Shown piece by piece: positions 369-8,515 of a DNA stretch of 41,189 bases. Position 1 is the stretch's first letter. Every line of letters begins with the position of its first letter. Under the pieces are notes generated by a model. It searched no databases and was not told where the DNA came from. It saw only the letters and a list, made by a program, of their open reading frames with translations. The position numbers and the translations under genes were made by a program. This stretch comes from Actinomycetota bacterium (GTDB lineage Bacteria > Actinomycetota > Nitriliruptoria > Nitriliruptorales > JAHWKO01), in contig JAHWKW010000025.1 in the NCBI GenBank assembly GCA_019347675.1, positions 1 through 41,189 on the forward strand, given 5' to 3'.

Positions 369-375
369 CTAGGCG
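345..375. repeat. 11-bp tandem repeat, nearly three copies
   Basis: The unit ggctaggcgtc is repeated from 345 with an 11-bp period. Read on the minus strand, each unit carries a TAG. Because the period is not a multiple of three, the three TAGs fall in three different frames directly at and after the smc stop. Confidence 0.8.
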
Positions 376-3300
376 GGGACGTCCTCGCTCAGACGCTCGG
401 CGACGACCTTCGAGACGGCATCGGCGCCCATCGTCACGCCGTACAACAGGTCGGCGATCTCCATGGTGGGGGTCTGGTGCGTGACCAGCAGAACCTGCGA
501 GGTCTGCTTGAACGACTCCACCACCTGCAGGAACCGCCGCAGGTTCACCTCGTCGAGTGACGCTTCGACCTCGTCGAGGACGTAGAACGGCGACGGCCGG
601 GCCCGGAAGATCGCGAACAGGAACGCCAGCGCGGCGAGCGACCGCTCCCCGCCGGACAGCAGCGACAGGCGCCGGATCCGCTTGCCGGGCGGGCGGGCCT
701 CGACCTCGATGCCCGTGGTGAGCAGGTCATCGGGGTCGGTGAGCGTCAGCCGGCCATGACCGCCGGGGAAGACGGTTGCGAACACGTCCTCGAACTCGCG
801 GGAGACGTCGCGGAAGGCGTCGGCGAACACGTCGCGGATCTTGGCGTCCACAGCCCGGATGATGTCGTGGAGGTCGCGGCGACTGGTGAGGAGATCGTGC
901 AGCTGACGTGACAGGAACCGGTGGCGTTCTTCGAGCGCGTGGAACTCCTCGAGCGCGAGCGGGTTGACACGGCCGAGCGACGTCACCTTGCGTTCGAGCG
1001 TCTCGAGCTGTGCGACCAGGTCGGCCCGGTCGTCGGTGGCCGCGTCGGGATGCTCGGCGAGCAGATCGTCGGGCGCCAGCTGGAACTCGTCACGCACCCG
1101 CGTGGTCAGCTCGTCGAGGCGGTGGCGCACCTCGGCCCGTTGCAGGTCGGCGGCGTGGCGCCGCTCCCGTGCCGCGTCGAGCTCGGTCGCCTGCTCCCGC
1201 AGGCGACGGCGGAGCGCGGCCAACTCCTGTTCCCGGCGCGCCCGGTCGACGTCGAGACGATCTCGGTCGGCGCACGCGTCGCGGATCGACCCTTCGATGT
1301 TGGTCAGCGCCTCCGCGGCGACCGCTGCCAGGTCGCCGCAGCGGCGTACGTGGTGGCGACGCAGGTCGCGCCGACGAGCGGCCTCCGCCAGGGCCTGCTC
1401 GACCTGGTGGGCTTCGTCGCGCAGCTCCGCGGCGCCACGTCGCAGATGCTGCCCCTGTTCGTCGAGGCGCTCGACCGCCAGGCGGGCGTCCAGCTCGCGG
1501 CTGCGGCACTCCTCGACCCTGCGGTCGAGCCGATCCGCTTCGGCGTCACGGTCGGCTCGGTCGGGGTCGTCACCGGCGGGCGGCGCCACCAGCTCCTCGG
1601 TCTCCAGGGTCACCAGCGCCTGCTGGTGGCGCTCGACCGACGCGGTGAGTTCGGCCCGGTGCTGGCGTAACAGTCCCTCCTGGCGGGTGAGCGCGTCGAG
1701 GTCCTTGGTGAGGCGCGCCAGCTGGTCAGCGGCGCCGGTGATGCGGGCGTCGGACCCATTGAGCGCCGCGGTGGCCGTGGCGAGCTGGGTGCGCCGTTGG
1801 TCCACGCGGGCACGGGCTTGCGCAACCTCGGATGCCGTCGCCGTCACAGCGTCATCGAGCGCGGCGACGCGTCGTTCGGCTTCCTCGGCGGCCGCGGCGC
1901 TGACCATCGACGAGCGGTCCGGCGTCGATCCCCCGACGAACCCGCAGGGACCGGCCACGTCTCCGTCCGGGGTGACGAAGGTCAGATCGGGATGTTCCTC
2001 GTGCAGCGCGACCGCCTGGGGCCAGTCGACGACGATGAAGGTGCCGGCCAGAGCGTGGCGAAGTGCCGCCAGCACCCCGACCGAGTCACGGTCACGGGCC
2101 GTCAGGAGTTCGGCCACCGGCCGGGACCCGGCCGGTGGGGCGGGCGCCACGGCGGCGGCCTCGTCCGCGGCGCGGGACGGGAGCACGACTGTCCGCCCGT
2201 GGTGGGCGCGACGAAGGTGCGCCACGGCGCCCGCTGCGTGACCCGCGGAACGTGCCACCACGGCGTCGTCGAGCGGGCCGAGCGCGGCGGCCACGGCGGC
2301 CTCTGCCCCGGCCTCGACGCGGACGTGGTCGGTCAGGAGGCCGAGCACCCCGTCGAGCTGTGACCTCAGCAGCGCCGTGGCGCCGTCGTCGGTCTGGGCG
2401 GAGGCGGCTCGCAGGGCTTCTGCCCGGGCGGCCTGGGAGGCCCGTTCGCGCTCGAGGTCGTGTTGGTGCACGACGGCTGCTTCCAGGTCGGCCTCGGCCT
2501 CCGCGAGCGCGGACTCGGTGTGCTCGACGCTCTCGGTCAGATGCCATTCCTCGGCGTCCAACCGACGGATGTCGTCCTGTACCCCCTCGATCTCCACACG
2601 CAGTTGTCGCCCGCGGGCGTCGAGTTCGCCCAGCTGGGTCTCCAGCCGTGTCGCCTCCGCCGAAGCGGCGTCCACGGCGTTGCGGTGCGCGCGGACATCG
2701 CCCTCCCACCGCAGGTAGCGCTCGCGCGCCTCGGTCCGTGCCCGCGCGGACGCGGCCTGGTTGCGCTCGTGTTCGCGCCGGGCGAGCTGCGCGTCGCGAC
2801 TGGCGACCATGGCCCGTTCCAGTTCGGCGCGGGCTGTGGCCAGGGCCTGCAGACGAGCGGAGTGTTCGGCGTCGACCCGGTCAGCCTGGGCGCGGAGTTC
2901 GTCGGGGGGGCGCCCCGCCAGCGGGTCCTCGACGTACTCAAGGAGGTGACGGCGGCGGGCCTCGATCAGGGTGGCGGTGCCCTGCAACCGTTCCCGCAAG
3001 CGTGCGAGCCGTTCGACGGCGGCTCGGGCCGCTTCGGCACGGGGGGCGTCGGCCCGTAGCTGCTCCTCGGCGCCGTCGACCGCAGCCTCCAGCTCGCCGG
3101 TCGCCGCCTCGAGCGCGGCCTGTTCGGTGGCGGTCGCGGTGTCGTGCTCGTCTGCCTGCTGCCACGCTCGACGCAGGCCTGCCAGATCGTGTCCCGCGAG
3201 TCGGGTGCGCGCCTCGCGCAGTTCCGCCTGCAGCCGCGCGTGCTTGTTGGCGGCTTCGGCTTGCCGCTCGAGGGGACGCAGCTGGCGGCCCAGCTCGCGC

Positions 3301-3914
3301 AGCACCGTGCGCAGTTTCTCGACGTGGACGTCGACGTTCTCGAGCTTGCGGTGCGCGCGTTCGCGCCGGCGGCGGTGCTTCAGGATCCCTGCGGCCTCCT
3401 CGATGAACGCGCGGCGCTCCTCGGGCTTGGCGTGAAGGATCGCGTCGAGCTGGCCCTGCCCGACGATGGTGTGAAGTTCGCGGCCCAGACCGGTGTCGGA
3501 CAGCAGCTCCTGGACGTCCAGCAGGCGGCACTCCACGCCGTTGATCGCGTAGATGTTCTCGCCGCTGGCGAGGATCTCCCGCGACAGACGGACCTCGCTG
3601 AAGCCCTGGGCGGAACCGCCGAGCCCGACCCCGCCCAGGCCCAGCTGGCCACGTGAGTTGTCGATGACGATCTCGACCTTGGCCTGACCGACCCCTGGGC
3701 GGCCCGGCGAACCAGCGAAGATGACGTCGGCCAGTTCACCGCCCCGCAGCACCTTCGCCGAGCGCGTTCCCAGGACCCACGCGAGCGCGTCCACGATGTT
3801 GGACTTCCCGGACCCGTTGGGTCCCACGATCGCGGTGATGCCGGTTTCGAACGCGAGGACGGTGCGCTCCGCGAAGGACTTGAACCCCCGCAGCGTGAGC
3901 GACTTCAGAAACAA
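369..3914 (-). CDS. smc: Chromosome segregation ATPase SMC
   Basis: SMC forms a long antiparallel coiled-coil dimer that, with ScpA and ScpB, compacts and organises the chromosome. All parts are visible in 1181 residues, a normal length. Walker A GPNGSGKSN is at residues 31-39, a long heptad-rich coiled coil is interrupted by a globular hinge around 505-620, and the ABC signature LSGGERS is near 1086 with Walker B FYVLDEVEASLD near 1110. The start is a TTG preceded by GAGG eight bases upstream, and the protein begins F-L-K-S-L-T-L-R-G-F-K-S-F as SMC N-termini do. A TAGCGT box at 3995-4000 on the minus strand may be its -10 element. It ends the minus-strand repair/ribosome block. No ftsY follows within the window, although it often does in other bacteria. 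Confidence 0.97.
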   Translation of the reverse strand: MFLKSLTLRGFKSFAERTVLAFETGITAIVGPNGSGKSNIVDALAWVLGTRSAKVLRGGELADVIFAGSPGRPGVGQAKVEIVIDNSRGQLGLGGVGLGGSAQGFSEVRLSREILASGENIYAINGVECRLLDVQELLSDTGLGRELHTIVGQGQLDAILHAKPEERRAFIEEAAGILKHRRRRERAHRKLENVDVHVEKLRTVLRELGRQLRPLERQAEAANKHARLQAELREARTRLAGHDLAGLRRAWQQADEHDTATATEQAALEAATGELEAAVDGAEEQLRADAPRAEAARAAVERLARLRERLQGTATLIEARRRHLLEYVEDPLAGRPPDELRAQADRVDAEHSARLQALATARAELERAMVASRDAQLARREHERNQAASARARTEARERYLRWEGDVRAHRNAVDAASAEATRLETQLGELDARGRQLRVEIEGVQDDIRRLDAEEWHLTESVEHTESALAEAEADLEAAVVHQHDLERERASQAARAEALRAASAQTDDGATALLRSQLDGVLGLLTDHVRVEAGAEAAVAAALGPLDDAVVARSAGHAAGAVAHLRRAHHGRTVVLPSRAADEAAAVAPAPPAGSRPVAELLTARDRDSVGVLAALRHALAGTFIVVDWPQAVALHEEHPDLTFVTPDGDVAGPCGFVGGSTPDRSSMVSAAAAEEAERRVAALDDAVTATASEVAQARARVDQRRTQLATATAALNGSDARITGAADQLARLTKDLDALTRQEGLLRQHRAELTASVERHQQALVTLETEELVAPPAGDDPDRADRDAEADRLDRRVEECRSRELDARLAVERLDEQGQHLRRGAAELRDEAHQVEQALAEAARRRDLRRHHVRRCGDLAAVAAEALTNIEGSIRDACADRDRLDVDRARREQELAALRRRLREQATELDAARERRHAADLQRAEVRHRLDELTTRVRDEFQLAPDDLLAEHPDAATDDRADLVAQLETLERKVTSLGRVNPLALEEFHALEERHRFLSRQLHDLLTSRRDLHDIIRAVDAKIRDVFADAFRDVSREFEDVFATVFPGGHGRLTLTDPDDLLTTGIEVEARPPGKRIRRLSLLSGGERSLAALAFLFAIFRARPSPFYVLDEVEASLDEVNLRRFLQVVESFKQTSQVLLVTHQTPTMEIADLLYGVTMGADAVSKVVAERLSEDVPA

Positions 3915-4572: not shown

Positions 4573-4851
4573 TCAGTGGCGGACTTCGAAGTCGTCGAGA
4601 CCCTCGGGTTCGCGCTCGTCGCTCTCGACATCCTCGACCCGGGCGGCCCGCGGCCCACCGGAGTGGACCCAGTCAACGACCGTCTCGACCGCGTCGGGTT
4701 CTCCTTCGACCCACAGCTCGACGGAGCCGTCACGGCAGTTGCGGACCCAACCGGTCGCTCCCACCTCTCGAGCCCTCTCACGCGACGACGCACGGAAGAA
4801 CACGCCCTGGACGCGACCGCGGATCTGCAGATGTCGCGCGGTCCGGCTCAT
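4573..4851 (-). CDS. acyP: Acylphosphatase
   Basis: A 92-residue acylphosphatase that hydrolyses the carboxyl-phosphate bond of acyl phosphates. The signature GRVQGVFFRASSRERA near the N-terminus contains the phosphate-binding Arg, and GWVRNCRDGSVELWVEG contains the catalytic Asn; both are intact and the length matches the family. The ATG at 4851 overlaps the TGA of the upstream mutM-like gene (ATGA), so translation is probably coupled. The frame is open further upstream, but that extension runs antisense-like through the zinc-finger coding end of the neighbour and is rejected. The C-terminal 15 residues are acidic. Confidence 0.93.
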   Translation of the reverse strand: MSRTARHLQIRGRVQGVFFRASSRERAREVGATGWVRNCRDGSVELWVEGEPDAVETVVDWVHSGGPRAARVEDVESDEREPEGLDDFEVRH

Positions 4852-5693
4852 ATCTGGCAGCCTCGGCAGTGGTAGGTCAGGTAGCGTCCCTTGACCTTGG
4901 TCTTGACCACCGTACGCCGGCATCGCAGACAGGGCTGGCCCTCACGTCCGTAGACCTTCAGGTGCGCGATCGGCTCGCCCTCCTCATCGAAGGCGAGATC
5001 GGGGGTGGCGTCCTCGAGCGTGGTGCCACGCTGCTTGATGGCGGCCTGCAGCACCTCCTGGGTGGCGCGGTACAGCCGGCGGACCTCCTGGGTCGACAGC
5101 GTCTCCGACGACCGGTCGTGGCTGAGGCCCGCCGCCCACAGTGCCTCGTCGCTGTAGACGGTCCCGATCCCGAGGACGTGGCGCTCGTCCATCAGCAGCT
5201 GCTTGAGGGGGTCGGCGGCGGCCTGCAACCGCTCGGCGAACGCCAGCCAGGTGGGGTTGTCCTCGAACAGGTCGAGCGCGTCCGGGGGAACCTCGGCGGC
5301 CGCGAACGCCTCCTGGGTCGGCACCACCCCCATGTGGCAGGACTCGCCCTCGCTGGGGTCGGTGACGTGGATGGCCCCGCCCGTCGTGAAGGTGACGACG
5401 ACGTCGGTGTCGGGCCCGGCCGGTTCGTTGATCGTCTCGCGGTGCAGCGTCGTCGTGTCACCAGGATCGATCACCCAGCTGTGTTCGTCGTCGAGATCGA
5501 GGAACAGCACGGTCCCCCGGCGCCGGACCGCCTCGATCTTCCTGCCCTCCAGCGCCTTGGCGAACTCCGGGCGGGTGCGGTGGTAGGGCCGCACGATCGC
5601 GGCGATCTTGACGTCGACCTCCTTGACCCGCTTGCCCACGATCTCCTTCTCGAGGTCCTTGCGCAGGACCTCCACCTCGGGTAGCTCGAGCAC
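4848..5693 (-). CDS. mutM: Fpg/MutM-family DNA glycosylase homologue with altered active site
   Basis: The protein is 281 residues, a normal Fpg length, and the fold signatures are clear: an N-terminal LELPEVE motif, a helix-two-turn-helix segment (KQLLMDERHVLGIGTVYSDEA) around residue 165, and a C-terminal zinc finger with Cys at C-x2-C and C-x2-C. Active Fpg cuts oxidised purines using the N-terminal proline exposed after Met removal. Here codon 2 is CTC (Leu) where that proline is expected, the catalytic Lys region (RRGK) reads RRRGT, the helix-two-turn-helix Asn is Thr (GIGT), and the DPRxFG loop is not recognisable. The GTG start is fixed by GGAGAGG seven bases upstream and lies four bases after the rnc stop. 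It could be a catalytically dead or repurposed lesion-binding paralogue. The gene symbol reflects family and position, not proven activity. Confidence 0.85.
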   Translation of the reverse strand: MLELPEVEVLRKDLEKEIVGKRVKEVDVKIAAIVRPYHRTRPEFAKALEGRKIEAVRRRGTVLFLDLDDEHSWVIDPGDTTTLHRETINEPAGPDTDVVVTFTTGGAIHVTDPSEGESCHMGVVPTQEAFAAAEVPPDALDLFEDNPTWLAFAERLQAAADPLKQLLMDERHVLGIGTVYSDEALWAAGLSHDRSSETLSTQEVRRLYRATQEVLQAAIKQRGTTLEDATPDLAFDEEGEPIAHLKVYGREGQPCLRCRRTVVKTKVKGRYLTYHCRGCQI

Positions 5694-5697
5694 CCCG

Positions 5698-6453
5698 TCA
5701 CCTCTCCTGCGCGTCGGGGCCGGGCGCCGATCGGTCGCTCCGGCTCAACAACCGGTAGGCCTCGCGTGCGGCGGCCTGCTCGGCCTTCTTCTTGCTCCCG
5801 CCGGTCCCCCGTCCGCACTCGATGCCTTCGACCGAGACCACGGCTGTGAACTCCGGGGCGTGGTCGGGACCCTCCTCGTGCAGGGCGTAGACCGGCAGGC
5901 TCCCGAAGCGCGCGGCGGCCAGTTCCTGCAGGCTCGTCTTGTAGTCGAGCGCCGCGCCGCGAGTGGCCAGCTCCTCCAGACGCTCGGCGAACAGGCGACG
6001 CACCAGCGCCGAGGCGGCCTCGAAGCCGCGATCGAGGTGCACTGCTCCGAGCACCGCCTCGAACGTGTCGGCCAGGATCGAATCCTTGTCCTGCCCGTCG
6101 GTGGCGACCTCGCCCTTCCCGAGGCGGACGAACCGGCCGAGGTCCAGTGCGCGGGCCACGTCCGCGAGCGTGGCGGTTCTCGTCGCCGCTGCACGCAGCT
6201 TCGTCAGGCGCCCCTCGGGCGCCTCGTGCATCTGCTCGAAGATCAGGTCGGTCACGACCAGCGTCAGCACGGCGTCACCGAGGAACTCCAACCGTTCGTT
6301 GGTCGGCAGGCCACCGTGCTCGAACGCGAACGACCGGTGTGTCAACGCCCGTCGCAGGATCCCGCCATCGCTGAACTGCATCTCCAAGCGCGCTTCGAGC
6401 TCGGCAAGCTCCGGGCGGTCAGCGTCGTCGCCGGTTGTGGGGACCCGCTGCAC
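5698..6453 (-). CDS. rnc: Ribonuclease III
   Basis: RNase III cleaves double-stranded RNA, for example in rRNA precursors. The signature NERLEFLGDA is at about residues 52-61, a second catalytic acidic patch (DKDSILADTFEAVLGA) follows, and a double-stranded-RNA-binding domain fills roughly residues 160-240. I chose the GTG at 6453 because GGGAGG stands five bases upstream, giving 251 residues. A GTG at 6480 would add nine residues (MTTTTREAS) but has no ribosome binding site. The gene lies between rpmF and the mutM-like gene. The order DUF177-rpmF-rnc-fpg is a classical cluster of Gram-positive and actinobacterial genomes. Confidence 0.95.
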   Translation of the reverse strand: MQRVPTTGDDADRPELAELEARLEMQFSDGGILRRALTHRSFAFEHGGLPTNERLEFLGDAVLTLVVTDLIFEQMHEAPEGRLTKLRAAATRTATLADVARALDLGRFVRLGKGEVATDGQDKDSILADTFEAVLGAVHLDRGFEAASALVRRLFAERLEELATRGAALDYKTSLQELAAARFGSLPVYALHEEGPDHAPEFTAVVSVEGIECGRGTGGSKKKAEQAAAREAYRLLSRSDRSAPGPDAQER

Positions 6454-6531
6454 GGACGCCTCCCGGGTTGTCGTCGTCACTCGCGTCGCGACAGCGGTCG
6501 TGGCCCTCCGTTGAGGCGCGGGTGGTGGCCC

Positions 6532-7421: not shown

Positions 7422-7985
7422 TCACCTCGTCTCCCATTCCTCGTCGGCGCGCTCTTCCTCGACGTCGGCGAGGTCGTCCGCCGCGATCCGCCCGCGGAGC
7501 TTGTCGCGTCCCCGTCCCACCGCCGCGAGCGTCTTGTTCAGCACCACCTCGAAGTTCGCGAGCTTGGCGTCGACGTAGTCCTCGGCTTCGAGGCGGATCT
7601 GGCGGGCGTGCTCCTGGGCCTCGTCGATGACGCGGTCGGCCTCGCGGTTGGCGGCCTGGACCACCTCCGTCCGTGACACCAGCCGGGCGCGCTCCGCCTC
7701 GGCGTCCTCGCGGAGCTGCGCCGCTTCGCGCCGGGCCCGGTCGAGGATCTCGTCACGCTCCTTCAGGATCCACCGGGCCTGGCGCAACTCGTCGGGGAGC
7801 GAGCCGCGCAGTTCGGCGATCACGCCTTCCAGCTCGGCCCGGTTGAGCATGATGGAGGCGGACAGCGGGACGTTCTTCCCGTCGGCCACCATGAGCTCGA
7901 GCTGGTGGAGCTTGGCCTCGACGTCCAGAGAGCCGCTCGGTGCGGCGCTCCACGAGGTCGGACGGCTGGTGTCGGTATCGGCCAT
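7422..7985 (-). CDS. SepIVA-like DivIVA-family coiled-coil protein
   Basis: 187 residues, nearly all helical coiled coil after a short N-terminal segment. The C-terminal block (EVVQAANREADRVIDEA, YVDAKLANFEVVLNKTL, VGRGRDKLR) closely matches what I remember of mycobacterial SepIVA (Rv2927c), a DivIVA/FtsB-like protein needed for septation and polar envelope growth. The mycobacterial gene also sits beside the rnc and DUF177 genes, which supports orthology. I start it at the ATG at 7985 (MADTDTSRP); a frame extension to 8042 runs into the coaD end and looks non-coding. Annotation pipelines may call such proteins ATP synthase F0 subunit B-like. Confidence 0.8.
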   Translation of the reverse strand: MADTDTSRPTSWSAAPSGSLDVEAKLHQLELMVADGKNVPLSASIMLNRAELEGVIAELRGSLPDELRQARWILKERDEILDRARREAAQLREDAEAERARLVSRTEVVQAANREADRVIDEAQEHARQIRLEAEDYVDAKLANFEVVLNKTLAAVGRGRDKLRGRIAADDLADVEEERADEEWETR

Positions 7986-8038
7986 GTGGACTCTCGCTCC
8001 GTGGTGTTCCCTGCCAGCGTACTGGCGGGGGCCCGGGC

Positions 8039-8515
8039 TCAACCGAACTCCTCGGCCAGCGCCGCGGCGACCTGCGGGGGTACCAGGCCCTGAACCGACC
8101 CGCCGAGGCGGATGACCTCCTTCACCAGCGACGACGACAGGTACGACCAGTCGGGGCTGGTGGACATGAACAGGGTCTCGACGTCGCCCAGCCGCTGGTT
8201 CATCTGGGCCATCTGGAGCTCGTACTCGAAGTCGCTGACCGCGCGGAGGCCCTTGACGATGACGCCGATCCCGCGCTCGTGGCAGAAGTGCACCAGCAGC
8301 CCCTGGAAGCTGGTGACCTGGACGTTACCCAGGTGGGCGGTGGTCTCCTCGATCAGGCGCACACGGTCGCCGACGTCGAACAGGGGCTGCTTGGTGGGGT
8401 TCTGCAGCACCGCCACGACGACCTCGTCGAAGCGCGACGCGATGCGCTCGATGATGTCGAGGTGGCCGTAGGTGACCGGGTCGAAGCTCCCCGGGCACAC
8501 TGCGGAGTTGCTCAT
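8039..8515 (-). CDS. coaD: Pantetheine-phosphate adenylyltransferase
   Basis: CoaD transfers AMP from ATP to 4'-phosphopantetheine, the fourth step of coenzyme A synthesis. The 158-residue protein has the nucleotidyltransferase T/HxGH motif in [10 protein letters not shown] (residues 9-18), the substrate segment [19 protein letters not shown] and the ATP-site SSSLVKEV near the end. The ATG at 8515 has GGAAGG eight bases upstream. It follows rsmD by 34 bases; rsmD-coaD is a very common pair. Confidence 0.97.

Follow-up and report, generated by a model that had tools for sequence, protein, structure and literature searches.

A MutM-fold protein with a stripped active site is conserved beside rnc across Nitriliruptoria

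The protein analysed here, a stripped form of MutM-A, has its closest known counterparts in the Fpg/MutM glycosylases (TIGR00577, PRK01103; PDB 1R2Y, 1L1Z and 3JR5), with a similar fold over its whole length (TM ~0.8) at ~30% identity. The LPEVE helix, the H2TH domain, the Cys4 zinc finger and the location at the rnc locus seen in other actinobacteria are shared. However, the stripped protein lacks P2, K60, H74, M77, R112, F114, N174, Y225 and R264, is acidic, scores under the NCBIfam cut-offs and carries a clade signature (W149/R205/R206/R209/E213/R259). The canonical rnc-linked MutMs of Acidimicrobiia (such as L144 and L116) belong to the same clade, occupy the orthologous locus and share W149/R205/R206/R209/E213 (WRRRE) and R259. 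In contrast to the stripped protein, they are basic and retain every part of the active site, and the genomes of this kind that were tested lack the second Fpg, FpgB, described below. Metazoan NEIL3 is a Fpg/Nei protein with Val in place of the N-terminal Pro, and it has been proposed to serve as a non-catalytic scaffold (PMC11323726). However, NEIL3 is an active glycosylase via its Val N-terminus, whereas the stripped protein lacks the entire site. Fpg2 of Mycobacterium tuberculosis (Rv0944) is also an actinobacterial Fpg homologue without the catalytic N-terminal residues (PMC2734929). Rv0944 is truncated, although its orthologues in M. smegmatis and M. avium are full length, whereas the window protein is itself full length and stripped class-wide. 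The glycosylase activities of NEIL3 with Val and of the P2A Nei2 variant indicate that a missing Pro alone is no proof of inactivity (PMC11323726). Thus, the assignment of the stripped MutM-A as a pseudoenzyme draws on all the losses taken together. Among open-licence papers, no description of MutM paralogues, of MutM pseudoenzymes or of an Fpg without the N-terminal Pro of this kind was found, and none describing the MutM/Fpg of Nitriliruptor or Acidimicrobiia. Class-scale pseudoenzymes of the Fpg/Nei glycosylases appear to be previously undescribed.

MutM-A is encoded in the window, the whole stretch of 41,189 nucleotides analysed here, and the features of its locus are listed in Table 1. 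The ORF opens with GTG-CTC-GAG, and inspection revealed no other in-frame ATG, GTG or TTG between the upstream stop and this GTG. Thus, Leu2 is not an artefact of the choice of start. A wrong start codon or a sequencing error is ruled out by this single start together with the presence of Leu2 in 33 of 61 orthologues. A Shine-Dalgarno-like sequence lies upstream of the gene, in agreement with the ribosome binding site of the original prediction, and the placing of a non-canonical MutM in the rnc-acyP operon was borne out by synteny, which showed its conservation at the rnc-acyP-smc locus. A YceD gene, identified by Pfam, lies upstream of rnc. Upstream of the YceD gene, a 206-aa ORF (7422-8042) has no Pfam match; as judged by eye, its product may be a DivIVA-like coiled-coil.

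Table 1. Positions in the window of MutM-A, its neighbours and the residues discussed in the text
Feature	Position	Strand	Basis
MutM-A, MutM/Fpg-fold protein, catalytically stripped, 281 aa, GTG start	4848..5693	-	ORF; Pfam H2TH and Fapy_DNA_glyco; NCBIfam Fpg below cut-off; fold match to MutM
Shine-Dalgarno-like AGGAGAGGTGA, overlaps rnc stop codon	5698..5708	-	sequence
rnc, RNase III, directly upstream of MutM-A, constant neighbour	5698..6480	-	Pfam; synteny
acyP, acylphosphatase, directly downstream of MutM-A	4573..4851	-	Pfam
SMC ATPase, same locus, farther downstream	369..3914	-	Pfam
Codon 2, CTC (Leu); nucleophilic Pro in Fpg	5688..5690	-	sequence, alignment
Thr61 at the catalytic Lys60 position	5511..5513	-	alignment
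D76-P-G-D79; H74 and M77 (phosphate contact, wedge) in catalytic relatives	5457..5468	-	alignment
DPSEGE replacing DPRxFG; wedge residues R112 and F114 gone	5343..5360	-	alignment
Thr178 at the N174 position, H2TH turn	5160..5162	-	alignment
Tyr271 at the zinc-finger Arg264 position	4881..4883	-	alignment
Cys4 zinc finger with R257-x-R259; RxR persists even in cysteine-less orthologues	4857..4931	-	alignment
Trp149, unchanged in the clade's rnc-linked orthologues (123/123) and not seen elsewhere	5247..5249	-	alignment
Helix with Q202, E203, R205, R206, R209, E213 and K220; R205/R206/R209/E213 invariant in 123/123	5034..5090	-	predicted helix 201-222, alignment, helical wheel

The predicted structure of MutM-A (AF2 pLDDT 89.1, pTM 0.84) has MutM-DNA complexes as its top matches in the PDB. 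Both Fapy_DNA_glyco and H2TH of Pfam score above cut-off, whereas the scores of the NCBIfam Fpg equivalog models stay under theirs (177.1 vs. 212 and 169.7 vs. 203.3 bits). The two-domain architecture, the phylogeny and the predicted fold place the protein in the Fpg/Nei superfamily by fold and descent. Alignment with the MutM of B. stearothermophilus showed the replacements P2 to L2, K60 to T61, H74 to D76, M77 to D79, R112 to S114, F114 to G116, N174 to T178 and R264 to Y271. Y225, the Tyr of the lesion-recognition loop, is also gone. Thus, the N-terminal Pro nucleophile of the Fpg/MutM glycosylases is absent. So is the Lys of the β-hairpin, which is retained in 9% of the stripped orthologues, and the intercalation triad of M77, R112 and F114 is replaced by D79, S114 and G116 (kept in 0, 4 and 0% of these orthologues). 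The sequence and the alignment agreed with the original prediction for Leu2, RRRGT, the change of the GIGN Asn to Thr and the loss of DPRxFG. The protein keeps E3, E6, R57/R58, the four zinc cysteines and the H2TH domain. Glu3 is found in the window protein and in 32/32 members of its order; Q, L, Y or H takes its place in most other members of the class. The LPEVE helix and the H2TH domain, described as intact, are kept in both the alignment and the predicted fold, with the Asn of the GxGN motif replaced by Thr. The same description of the zinc finger holds for the four cysteines and the predicted fold but not for the DNA-contacting Arg264, which is Tyr271, and the Pfam model zf-FPG_IleRS scores below cut-off. 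Seven stripped MutM-As (L031, L033, L046, L047, L048, L068 and L069), from two separate lineages, have lost all four zinc cysteines and retain the adjoining R257-x-R259.

Conservation was analysed in 61 genomes around that of the window. With Nitriliruptoraceae, Nitriliruptorales, Egibacter and Euzebyales as the relatives bearing names, the class was taken as Nitriliruptoria. A MutM-family match is present in 61/61 genomes, and the best match is a stripped MutM-A in 59 of them; the other two genomes are 78% and 89% complete. Fifty-two Nitriliruptoria orthologues are similarly stripped, with rnc directly upstream in 51 of the 52 loci and the remaining locus running off its contig. Among the 61 orthologues, residue 2 is most often Leu (33), followed by Thr (21), Ser (5), Met (1) and Pro (1). 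Leu is typical of the order to which the window belongs, whereas the other families have Thr or Ser, so Leu2, whose conservation in relatives had been proposed as a check, is not a local mutation. The single Pro2 case (MPELPEAE; L035 of G002) was rejected as an active exception, its other catalytic residues being missing and its closest relatives having Leu. Relatives with MPELPEVE at the same locus, which the original prediction had taken to speak for a sequencing error or a unique mutation, literally exist in Acidimicrobiia. However, at the level of the class they mark the loss of catalysis and not a change unique to one genome. Pairs of MutM-As with at least 87% identity have dN/dS values of 0.08-0.15. 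As judged from these comparisons, MutM-A is shown to be nearly universal in the class and under strong purifying selection, and a gene conserved in this way after losing its catalytic motifs has the sequence characteristics of a pseudoenzyme. A recent pseudogene is ruled out by the dN/dS values and the conservation. The class-wide orthologues, the synteny with rnc and dN/dS of ~0.1 likewise uphold the earlier view that the gene is not in simple decay.

The original prediction suggested searching the genome for a second, canonical Fpg. Such a gene was found (FpgB; L002, G000:C2:174994); it has all catalytic residues, with the motifs MPELPEVESVRRQL, RRRGKF, DPRRFG, GVGNIY and RGTTYC. Two more Fpg/Nei-like genes are present in the genome besides MutM-A and FpgB. 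In a tree of 108 proteins, calculated with the active-site columns removed, the window protein shares a clade of good support with the rnc-linked MutMs of Acidimicrobiia and relatives, and FpgB lies elsewhere. The active site is complete in most rnc-linked MutMs of Acidimicrobiia. The grouping and these mostly canonical orthologues indicate that MutM-A is the original resident of the rnc locus, that is, on the topology of the tree, the ancestral rnc-linked MutM of the Acidimicrobiia-Nitriliruptoria lineage, and that FpgB is a replacement. The earlier reading of MutM-A as a paralogue is thus reversed by the trees: it is not a derived copy, the canonical Fpg belongs to another branch, and duplication from the genome's own canonical Fpg is ruled out.

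The stripped forms make up one clade (98/98), consisting of Nitriliruptoria and the code families f6 and f17, plus the separate protein L129, which is nested among canonical proteins. FpgB was set apart from other Fpgs by its identity to L002, which is at least 59% in full-length main-clade members and at most 49% in other Fpgs. It is present in 14/14 stripped f6 and f17 genomes and in 32 of the 33 high-quality genomes of the class, and was found in none of the 18 genomes with a catalytic or M-ELP MutM-A. The genome of L129 (G239, uncultured Acidimicrobiales) has a complete gene (L278) within the FpgB clade (54% identity, support 100/99), and FpgB was not found in the three canonical sisters of L129. 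L278 has an insertion of ~40 residues. The loss of catalysis accompanied FpgB at least twice, in the large clade and in the genome of L129, and the association amounts to about two independent events. Pro is often retained in f6 although Asn, the wedge residues and Arg264 are lost, indicating that the loss of Pro was not always the first step. The sole high-quality genome of the class without FpgB, G036 (2.1 Mb, 96% complete), apparently has no canonical Fpg. Its only H2TH/Fpg-family protein is a stripped, zinc-less MutM-A (L048, C3:85378-86193). The retention of MutM-A without any other H2TH protein indicates that it is more than an FpgB accessory. Slow decay of a redundant gene on its way out would agree with the coincidence of the catalysis loss and the second Fpg. 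However, the low dN/dS in close pairs, the spread of MutM-A across many genera, its standing as the sole family member in so small a genome and a signature invariant in 123/123 orthologues leave this reading with hardly any probability.

Several variants were observed beside these loci. One assembly contains two copies of FpgB (L056 and L057; G024:C107 and G024:C115). In f17 (L187, L237, L238 and L248; G072 and G086), rnc and the stripped MutM-A are separated by a Nei-like gene (MPELPELDVLAENL); a tandem duplication of MutM at rnc was rejected here since the extra gene proved Nei-like. The Pro codon is absent from 17 distinct rnc-linked MutMs of f12 type (L111, L112, L113, L118, L123, L125, L177, L183 and others), in which the start codon is directly followed by the Glu codon, and no alternative in-frame start exists, with one exception. 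Lys60, the wedge, Asn174, Arg264 and the zinc finger are intact in this M-ELPEVE clade, and no FpgB was found in the f12 genomes searched. These M-ELPEVE MutMs are probably active, with the Met1 α-amine in the register of Pro.

The losses in the stripped proteins were evaluated at the 75 positions that are invariant in the catalytic sisters. The most completely lost are M77, F114, N174, R264, R112, Y225, Q166, H74 and K60, which are the residues known to serve MutM in chemistry and DNA contact. The median pI and net charge change from 9.2 and +7 in the catalytic sisters to 5.2 and -12 in the MutM-As of the class, whereas the FpgBs of the same genomes have 9.45 and +7. A halophile-type acidification of the whole proteome is thus an unlikely source of the low pI. 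The lost positions match the known MutM residues tabulated in PMC3188539; the retention of L4, E8, R58 and D141 is put down to the stability of the fold around Gly59 (PMC3188539), and these residues were not counted as evidence. The original prediction also considered a lesion-binding protein. As a non-catalytic binder of lesions or abasic sites, MutM-A would shield damaged DNA in the MutM groove or recruit repair proteins, for which the MutM fold, the H2TH domain and the zinc finger, all predicted to be intact, and the retained R58, E6, E8 and K164 could serve. The non-catalytic repair role discussed for the relative NEIL3 and the remaining glycosylase activity of P2A Nei2 (PMC11323726) are in line with such a role. 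However, the wedge (M77, R112 and F114), the phosphate contacts (K60, H74, N174 and R264) and Tyr225 are the very residues most completely lost, together with the catalytic ones. The loss of DNA contacts and the acidic shift, in genomes whose FpgB stayed basic, argue against lesion binding, which is considered unlikely.

An enzyme acting in the same cleft with another nucleophile or another chemistry was the further suggestion of the original prediction. Thr or Ser at position 2 in the wider class would permit the removal of Met1 by Met aminopeptidase, in register with Pro, and E3 is retained in the window's order. NEIL3 works via a Val that becomes its N-terminus once Met is removed (PMC11323726). 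However, Leu2 should block the removal of Met1, so that the amine would be out of register by one residue. Moreover, a variety of residues replaces Lys60, Asn174 and Arg264, and the cleft has no new conserved candidate. Another nucleophile is thus judged very improbable. Weak residual activity may nevertheless be present in MutM-A, as far as sequence allows a judgement.

The WRRRE signature is identical in all 123 MutM-As, catalytic or stripped and with L129 included, and is absent from every other Fpg/Nei protein that was checked. It is usually joined by Q202, K/R220 and R259. A helical-wheel calculation placed Q202, R205, R206, R209, E213 and K220 across helix 201-222 from its hydrophobic face. 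A single helix probably offers a surface for interaction here, on which the signature would be exposed. As the main alternative, the invariance could have a structural reason, such as a network of salt bridges specific to the lineage, instead of marking a site of interaction. Another explanation is an RNA function tied to the operon with its RNase III, YceD and rRNA-maturation genes, in which MutM-A would bind a structured RNA or a ribosomal intermediate. H2TH-type domains are found in the RNA-associated NFACT/RqcH proteins, and the window protein has a weak match to Pfam NFACT_N. The constant place directly after rnc, with YceD upstream, and the Arg-rich conserved signature would also suit this function. 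However, canonical MutMs of other actinobacterial lineages are linked to rnc too, so the position says little about an RNA role and was dismissed as evidence for one, and the overall charge of MutM-A is strongly negative. The RNA function is held to be about as doubtful as the binding of lesions.

The explanation favoured here, with somewhat better than even confidence, is that the stripped MutM-A is a MutM pseudoenzyme retained for a second, lineage-specific function. We infer the absence of activity, the exposure of the signature and the existence and nature of a partner from sequence and prediction. Originally, MutM-A would have had two jobs, the excision of oxidised bases and another that relied on the surface around helix 201-222 and the RxR pair of the zinc finger. 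As soon as FpgB was present, the active site and the DNA groove would no longer have been under selection, and the groove residues and the net charge would have drifted, while the second job held the gene beside rnc. The most likely form of this job would be the non-catalytic docking, on the signature face, of a putative partner, which may be a protein or else a structured nucleic acid that is not lesion DNA. Chances are about even that, in the Acidimicrobiia-Nitriliruptoria lineage, MutM performs a second, unrecognised and excision-independent function on the W149/R205/R206/R209/E213 surface that has outlived the enzyme, even in one reduced genome with no other family member. Annotation by similarity would label MutM-A an 8-oxoguanine glycosylase and credit Nitriliruptoria with one too many. 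The coexistence of a catalytic orthologue, a stripped orthologue and a replacement Fpg across related genomes makes a non-repair role of MutM testable.
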